Shown here: positions 61,447-62,019 of the stretch, piece by piece
How positions within the stretch are numbered: position 1 is the first letter of the stretch
Layout: each line of letters opens with the position of its first letter
Source: Pyrenophora tritici-repentis
Taxonomy: Eukaryota; Ascomycota; Dothideomycetes; Pleosporales; Pleosporaceae
NCBI RefSeq assembly: GCF_003171515.1
Contig: NC_089394.1
Coordinates: forward strand, 2,790,001-2,854,000
Direction of reading: 5' to 3'
DNA: 64,000 bases
The notes under the pieces: generated by a model
What the model was told of the DNA's origin: nothing
Seen by the model: only the letters and a program-made list of their open reading frames with translations
The model's database searches: none
Position numbers and translations under genes: made by a program

Positions 61447-62019
61447 CTAGAGAAAAGCTAGTAACTCGCGCGCAAAGTAGCGCCTAGCCAATTGAGAATC
61501 CTTCTCTTGAATAGTAACCCTCTTTGCGTGAATAGCATTGATGTTGCAGTCTATAAAAGTTATTAAATGAAAAATAGTATAGGGTAGATAGACTATACCC
61601 TCAAAATAACCAACTAAGAAAGCTTCTGTAGCTTCCTGAAGAGCTTCGATTGCAGATCGTTGAAAGCGGATATCGGCCTTGTGCACCTGTGCAAATTCGC
61701 GCACTACGCGGGAAAAGGGGAGTTTTCGCAAGAGTAGTTCAAAACCTCTCTGGTATCTCTTGATTTCCCGTAATGCGACAGCTAAGCTAAATTAGAAAAT
61801 AGCTGTGATAAACGACTGTGATAACCTACTGCCGGCCTTAAACTTGCGCTTCTTCTTAACAGCTACAGGTGCCTTTCGCGTAGACTTTCCTGCTACTTGA
61901 CGTCTAGCCTTACTAGCAAGGGCCTTCTGAGCCGGCTTGCCGCCAGTAACTGTCTTGCCATCAGGACCACCCCGGCCGGCTTTACCGGTGACCTTAGGCC
62001 GTGGTTTTGTCCTTGCCAT
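61447..62019 (-). CDS. Transposon-borne histone H3 variant
   Basis: Three exons (62019-61830, 61781-61599, 61550-61447) with 48-nt GT-AG introns give 158 aa; canonical H3 has 135-136. The start MARTK and the whole histone fold are recognisable: AGTVALREIKRYQ (alpha-N, completed at junction 1), LLRKLPFSRVVREFAQ (alpha-1), loop 1 of normal length (HKADIRF), RSAIEALQEATEAFLV (alpha-2), FEDCNINAIHAKRVTIQ (completed at junction 2) and KDSQLARR (alpha-3). Loop 1 length argues against CENP-A. The tail is about 20 residues longer than in H3, keeps K4, TGGK and LASKA, but lacks both ARKS motifs; the K56 position is Arg. The C-terminus ends in a hydrophobic YFARELLAFL instead of LRGERS. It lies wholly inside a hAT element. 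Confidence 0.95.

Follow-up and report, generated by a model that had tools for sequence, protein, structure and literature searches.

Genes resembling histone H3 have been described between the ends of fungal DNA transposons. In Pyrenophora tritici-repentis, Manning et al. 2013 (PMC3538342) described an element in two forms and 26 copies that carries an H3-like gene (H3L), for which expressed sequence tags (ESTs) were given; in their judgement H3L is neither H3 nor the centromeric variant CenH3, was captured and has perhaps drifted, and the central open reading frame (ORF) of the element is of unknown function. Dhillon et al. 2019 (PMC6710886) regarded the P. tritici-repentis event as recent, independent and a transcript capture, and reported a different H3-bearing hAT element in Mycosphaerellaceae. 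The copy considered here lies in a stretch of 64,000 nucleotides (the window) from contig NC_089394.1 of P. tritici-repentis, positions 2,790,001 to 2,854,000, in which an earlier note, made from the letters alone, had pointed out an H3 variant gene inside a transposon. Proteins of the assembly agree at ~99% identity with P. tritici-repentis entries in the database. The element is the same as that of Manning et al., agreeing in its long form (~5.6 kb there, 5.87 kb here), its short form, H3L, the central ORF and the GACTAT junction (PMC3538342), and the precedent for H3 copies in the species that the earlier note mentions is this element itself. Beyond the 26 copies of that description, the present analysis found 33 copies, relatives in other genera, fixed interface residues and introns of the element's own type.

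The reading preferred here is that H3L and the central gene are an old resident gene pair of the transposon lineage, likely making private, silencing-resistant nucleosomes; taken as a whole, this reading is about evenly balanced between right and wrong, while its first part, that H3L is a resident, functional gene of the element, is probable. The gene is regarded as an old resident because H3L is intact in the hAT element and because its relatives adjoin relatives of the central gene, by gene number, in two fungi. A search of the 40.9 Mb genome found the same element in 33 copies, 22 of them short and 11 long (~5.87 kb), so the arrangement of an H3 gene within a transposon is no chance event. 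The window copy is of the short form, 2595 bp from 61135 to 63729, with the 17-bp terminal inverted repeat (TIR) TACGCTGGCAAATGGGT at 61135-61151, its reverse complement at 63713-63729 and the 8-bp target-site duplication (TSD) GGTGGCAC on both flanks. Its features are as follows.

61127..61134, no strand: target-site duplication, left (GGTGGCAC), repeated at 63730-63737
61135..63729, plus strand: short form of the hAT element (2595 bp, with an internal deletion), having 17-bp TIRs and 8-bp TSD; 33 copies in two size classes
61135..61151, plus strand: left terminal inverted repeat
61154..61281, plus strand: G-rich subterminal arrays, left
61447..61550, minus strand: H3L exon 3, including the stop codon
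61551..61598, minus strand: H3L intron 2, 48 nt, without the paired motif
61599..61781, minus strand: H3L exon 2
61782..61829, minus strand: H3L intron 1, 48 nt, with TTATCACAG-TCG-TTTATCACAG
61830..62019, minus strand: H3L exon 1, including the start codon
62530..62640, plus strand: central ORF exon 1, retained in the short form
62641-62685, plus strand: central ORF intron 1, with the paired motif
62686..63025, plus strand: central ORF exon 2
63066..63071, plus strand: GACTAT junction, marking the loss of the remaining central ORF and of the greater part of the transposase
63078..63451, plus strand: transposase C-terminal part, including the hAT dimerisation domain; database models, e.g. P0128, join it to the central N-terminus
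63549..63697, plus strand: right subterminal arrays, in the opposite orientation to those on the left
63713..63729, minus strand: right terminal inverted repeat
63730..63737, no strand: target-site duplication, right (GGTGGCAC)

The H3L gene runs on the minus strand from 62019 to 61447 (573 bp) in three exons separated by two 48-nt GT..AG introns, and its stop-terminated product of 158 amino acids reads AGTVALREI and FEDCNINAIHAKR across the splice junctions. The product scored 110.3 bits against the Pfam Histone profile (cut-off 26.4), and its sequence matched a solved H3 structure at 4.2e-40. The earlier note had described a spliceable 158-codon H3 with complete fold, whose introns restore exactly these two stretches, within a hAT-type element with terminal repeats and target duplications; both descriptions hold, the latter by the 17-bp TIR, the 8-bp TSD and the dimerisation domain. 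The near-invariant tail and fold of canonical replication H3 are absent from H3L. Compared with canonical fungal H3, 26 of 88 histone-fold residues are changed, and Lys9 and Lys27 are replaced; the earlier note places the changes chiefly in the tail, but the fold has changed too.

The 158-residue frame is intact in 30 of the 33 copies, the others having a frameshift, internal stops and a truncation, one each; 19 copies of the gene are identical in nucleotide sequence, eight differ by silent variants, three by a single missense change, and three are broken or truncated. A working gene, as the earlier note supposed, is likelier than a dead fragment; the copies do not all carry stops, and transcripts are in print as H3L ESTs (PMC3538342). 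A host H3 at a fixed locus, into which the ends merely happened to fall, does not fit this genome, in which no H3L was found outside the element, only canonical H3 and CenH3. The other matches to PF00125 outside the element are by sequence H2A, H2A.Z, H2B or remoter histone folds, and were rejected as H3. The ratio of non-synonymous to synonymous substitution rates (dN/dS) across copies, which had been proposed as a check, is uninformative with one silent and two missense variant sites only. One older long copy (L041, C1:7525727-7531591) is 95% identical and has H3L, the central ORF and the transposase all broken; of the 14 changes in its H3L exons, 10 are G-to-A or C-to-T transitions, such as repeat-induced point mutation (RIP) leaves.

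Relatives of H3L were sought with two protein searches, of which the best 120 rows each were considered. Among the matches listed in the first are H3L-type proteins of P. teres, of Paraphoma, Alternaria and Massariosphaeria, and of two environmental sets, and those listed in the second, made with residues 100-158, add Parastagonospora nodorum and Stemphylium; all four genera looked up belong to the order Pleosporales. All 10 H3L rows of a 30-row tree grouped on one branch (support 97/93) apart from both canonical H3 and CenH3; an origin of H3L from CenH3 was rejected on these separate branches, and H3L lacks the loop-1 insertion of the CenH3 rows. As the branches are long and the order within the H3L clade is poorly resolved, long-branch attraction would be possible on the tree alone; the shared derived residues argue for an H3L family separately from it. 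Among the 26 fold differences, 19 are common to at least one of seven relatives, nine to at least four, and Asn110 and Tyr130 to all, and eight of the nine widely common residues lie at positions 99-130, the H3-H3' contact region. In the eight alignable H3L rows, Asn110 and Tyr130 are present and Leu126 is kept in 8/8, and Ile109 is present in 6/8; of the 231 H3 hits that could be anchored, 12 have Asn110, and every one of these is an H3L, the hits being the best listed and no random sample. Leu109, Ala/Cys110, Leu126 and Leu/Ile130 form the hydrophobic cluster used for engineering the pairing of yeast H3 (PMC5626479). The H3L tail is poorly conserved between species, and Lys9, located like Lys27 by counting back from GGK14 so that a tail indel could shift either position, is replaced in 7/9 rows, which comprise six of the six named species with a readable tail. 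A literature search found no H3L or central relatives described in print, and viral contigs scanned with the central and H3L alignments gave no relatives among 600 and 65 pattern matches.

The central ORF is conserved as well, with 17 hits at E <= 10: 11 in P. tritici-repentis, two in P. teres, one on an environmental contig and single ones in Bipolaris sorokiniana, Exserohilum turcicum and P. nodorum. The H3L and central relatives of P. teres 0-1 carry the consecutive numbers CFE70_001393 and CFE70_001394, and the longest contig given is 5,608,903 bp for both; those of P. nodorum are numbered HBI18_252420 and HBI18_252410, and for both the contig measures 6,674 bp. It might be supposed that H3L is an ordinary host H3 variant of the Pleosporales, captured together with its neighbour by a hAT element in P. 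tritici-repentis only, and the H3L rows of Alternaria, Paraphoma and Massariosphaeria, for which no transposon tie is shown, would agree with this; yet the P. nodorum pair sits on a contig of about element size, outside the element this genome was found to contain canonical H3 and CenH3 only, without any H3L, and the motif of H3L intron 1 is that of the transposase introns. We consider this supposition very improbable.

Intron positions bear on the origin of the gene as well. The resident H3 gene shows a single intron, in its tail, the CenH3 introns lie elsewhere, and neither gene matches the two introns of H3L. Because its introns are elsewhere, its fold differs at 26/88 residues and it falls in a separate clade, H3L does not derive by a recent capture from the H3 gene resident in the host, a reading rejected on these grounds, and the idea of a simple captured host gene is not supported. 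For a transduplicated host gene no recognisable parent was found, as only canonical H3 and CenH3 are present outside the element and their intron positions differ.

Paired TTATCACAG-type words were found in six of the seven introns of the element, the pair being weak in transposase intron 1 and H3L intron 2 having none, and the motif of H3L intron 1 is common to five of the six other introns; H3L thus wears the element's own intron type. In the copy L038 the motif-bearing introns belong to three genes and follow the pattern TTATCACAG-NNN-TTTATCACAG, at these element positions:

648-695
1507-1551
1892-1939
2268-2313
4149-4197
4822-4872

In the 40.9 Mb there are 43 exact matches to the 22-bp pair, compared with none for the reversed control, and these occurrences are divided among H3L intron 1 (32), transposase intron 2 (10) and a truncated transposase copy (1); with two mismatches allowed the numbers are 158 and 1. 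Among the matches listed, one-mismatch pairs outside the element are C2:256540 and C5:3250115, the stretches around which contain no H3L or central relative, that of C2:256540 having a distant hAT. That host introns in general carry the paired motif is not borne out by the genome scans. Single copies of the motif also stand upstream of H3L and of the central ORF. The motif includes TTATCA, which we take to be the reverse of a fungal GATA site, and possibly it is a regulator site with a GATA-like core or marks the element's own intron family.

These results also bear on H3L as a passenger, that is, a host or foreign H3 captured once and hitch-hiking beside the needed left end, its changes being due to drift, which is close to the published views of possible drift (PMC3538342) and recent transcript capture (PMC6710886). 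The near-identical copies show a recent burst, the tail is poorly conserved between species, and the deletion of the short form spares the H3L side anyway, all as a passenger would have it; the presence of two introns, however, speaks against a transcript capture of the simple kind, and neither intron has its counterpart in the host H3. Moreover, 19 of the 26 derived fold residues are common to at least one of seven relatives with two fixed in 8/8, the H3L-central pair recurs in two species by gene numbers, and the frame is intact in 30/33 copies. A passenger is therefore unlikely, if the least unlikely of the alternatives treated here.

The probable residency of H3L leads to the question of what such a gene pair would do. 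Transposons are silenced via host nucleosomes, and fungal heterochromatin rests on H3K9 methylation. According to the preferred reading, H3L would bind DNA and H4 as H3 does, with most DNA contacts kept. Eleven H3 positions were taken by us as DNA contacts (T45, R49, K56, R63, K64, R69, R72, R83, F84, R116 and T118), and of these putative contacts Thr45, Arg49, Lys64, Arg69, Arg72, Arg83, Arg116 and Thr118 are kept in 8/8 H3L rows. With its altered H3-H3' interface (Asn110 and Tyr130 in every row, Ile109 in most, Leu126 unchanged), H3L would favour H3L-H3L over mixed tetramers with host H3, a specificity predicted from the residues and a little short of an even chance. Lacking Lys9, H3L could not receive H3K9 methylation; an anti-silencing role of this kind is possible though doubtful. 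The central protein is predicted to be helical, with 35 D/E and 3 K/R among its last 80 residues, and this acidity is kept in the aligned relatives; five of the six aligned central proteins have (S/T)(D/E)FEGF near the C-terminus. This sequence, we presume, resembles the acidic-F-x-G-F of TND/LEDGF-binding motifs, the TND-interacting motif (TIM) and the IBD-binding motif (IBM); in the literature passages naming TIMs and IBMs the TIM consensus was not found printed. The acidic helical protein may tentatively be considered a chaperone of H3L, predicted to bind the histone, and as chaperone or adaptor it would load H3L-H4, perhaps during transcription and through transcription-elongation factors, so that the chromatin of the element would stay open for transcription and transposition.

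The same kept histone fold and most putative DNA contacts, together with an altered interface in a multi-copy gene expressed according to its ESTs (PMC3538342), would also suit a decoy or poison histone that binds host H4 and the assembly chaperones, upsets host chromatin at large and eases silencing everywhere, in place of marking the element's own chromatin. The more copies there are, the greater the harm to the host should then be; the genome nevertheless tolerates 30 intact ones, and such a histone seems rather improbable.

Several observations weigh against the private nucleosome and against the long residence of the gene pair. The adjacency of H3L and central relatives in P. teres and P. 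nodorum is taken from locus-tag numbers and equal contig sizes, and no tie to the central ORF or to a transposon is shown for the H3L proteins of Alternaria, Paraphoma, Massariosphaeria and Stemphylium. Lys9 is retained in both environmental rows, Lys27 is lost in the P. tritici-repentis protein only, and the putative DNA contacts Lys56 (6/8), Phe84 (6/8) and Arg63 (4/8) are variable. The H3L model matches nucleosomal H3 at 3e-06 and is weak (predicted local distance difference test, pLDDT, 58.7); for the central protein, the model of which is poor (pLDDT 60.6), there was no significant Pfam match and, by sequence or by fold, no PDB match at E <= 0.001. The short form, without most of the central ORF, is the commoner one (22/33), so that the full central protein is dispensable in cis. 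Nor do measures of constraint settle the matter. Changes at canonical-invariant sites were fewer than expected in 7/7 pairwise comparisons, with p from 0.0005 to 0.1 among pairs that are not independent; in a neutral simulation an unbroken frame for one pair had a probability of 16-27% without selection; and single-nucleotide polymorphisms among 29 copies, 3 in 477 nt of H3L exons versus 23 in 1453 elsewhere, are too few to decide. Evidence of selection on H3L is suggestive only, and it is the derived residues common to other species, not the comparison of copies, that are the telling sequence evidence on H3L.

The long form consists of an 848-codon transposase, a 354-codon central ORF and H3L, the latter two being divergently oriented and both travelling with the transposase gene. 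The transposase matched Dimer_Tnp_hAT of Pfam with 72.5 bits (cut-off 21.4) and the RNase-H catalytic domain profile weakly, with 14.5 bits versus a cut-off of 27; its stretches ALDAWSA, TCDNASNN and VERVFNVA presumably fit the hAT D-D-E triad. Eight of the 11 long copies have an intact central ORF and five an intact transposase, three of them having both. In the short form the middle is deleted between two GACTAT sites, in agreement with PMC3538342, and consequently the window copy has no transposase of its own. Both 17-bp TIRs were found in 30 of the 33 copies, the other three, which are interrupted, having TIRs at their outer ends. The 8-bp TSD is perfect in 23 of the 30 copies for which a script found both ends; the seven remaining are three long copies and four members of inverted pairs, and two of these four show exchanged duplications. 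The latter are the inverted short copies L010 and L015 (C4:2928690-2931284 and C4:2934227-2936820) with swapped TSDs TTTAGGAG and GGCGAGGC, the mark of a recombination between copies that inverted the segment between them. Two further pairs of inverted copies, at C7:1128624-1134567 and C18:6455-12398, have a spacing of ~755 bp in both and common flanks, and represent either a duplicated segment or a single locus assembled twice.

The subterminal arrays at 61154-61281 and 63549-63697 are G-rich and telomere-like, made up of GGGTTGGGGTTGGG with some GGGTTAGGG and inverted between the ends; they could form G-quadruplexes or be bound by the transposase. Elements of 134 bp with a TIR different by one base (TACGCTGGTAAATGGGT), of which five complete copies were found (e.g. 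L035 6421-6554, C5:3206045-3206178), may be relatives resembling miniature inverted-repeat transposable elements (MITEs) and moved by the same transposase. The inverted arrangement of the G-rich arrays, and the presence of H3L in both size classes, would be in keeping with an architectural cofactor of transposition, H3L-H4 wrapping the ends or the telomere-like arrays for synapsis by the transposase. The five complete 134-bp elements with the variant TIR, however, have neither gene in cis, and to our knowledge hAT transposases studied elsewhere require no histone of their own; such a cofactor is quite improbable. Around the insertion in the window, a MITE-like foldback lies at 60676-60861 (two 84-nt arms, 87% complementary, with an 18-nt loop), and a 61-nt inverted repeat (97%) at 61027-61087 and 63771-63831 encloses the hAT, which accordingly was inserted between the arms of another repeat. 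Further away, a 12-bp tandem repeat of 10 copies (58205-58328) encodes an EAQA-type repeat in a long ORF (57490-58590, plus strand).

Returning to the private nucleosome, its furthest form would be a transposon lineage with orthogonal chromatin, in which a private H3 with an altered dimer interface and without Lys9 would be delivered by a dedicated acidic chaperone from the neighbouring gene, the element thereby wrapping itself in nucleosomes that the heterochromatin machinery of the host could not mark; this we consider unlikely, although less so than the alternatives above. If true, it would amount to a counter-defence acting on the nucleosome itself, an H3 supplied by the element avoiding both the silencing mark and mixing with host H3, and H3L would be a natural H3 with altered pairing specificity, a change that we otherwise know from designed histones only. 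Already the modest reading, an H3 variant resident in a transposon across several fungal genera, revises the published recent capture in a single species.

Among known systems, the hAT element of Mycosphaerellaceae (PMC6710886) is likewise amplified and has an H3-like sequence between its TIRs; unlike the present element it is ~9.5 kb long, with TIRs of 18-20 bp and either one or two H3 copies, which have no introns and were destroyed by RIP, and no nucleotide similarity between the two was seen in the comparison its authors give. It is possibly a second, separate acquisition. In transduplication of the Pack-MULE type (PMC3538342), too, a gene of cellular type is enclosed by the ends of a DNA transposon. 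Pack-MULE genes and fragments, however, have an identifiable parent, whereas H3L has none in the genome and has relatives across genera. CenH3 (CENP-A) is, like H3L, a divergent H3 variant with a variable tail; H3L differs by having no loop-1 insertion and by lying outside the CenH3 branch. Closest in the interface are the obligate yeast pairs H3X/H3Y (PMC5626479), the specificity of which is brought about via positions 109, 110, 126 and 130; H3L differs always at 110 and 130 and mostly at 109. H3X/H3Y is a laboratory design of a heterodimer (PMC5626479), whereas H3L occurs in nature and would presumably pair with itself.
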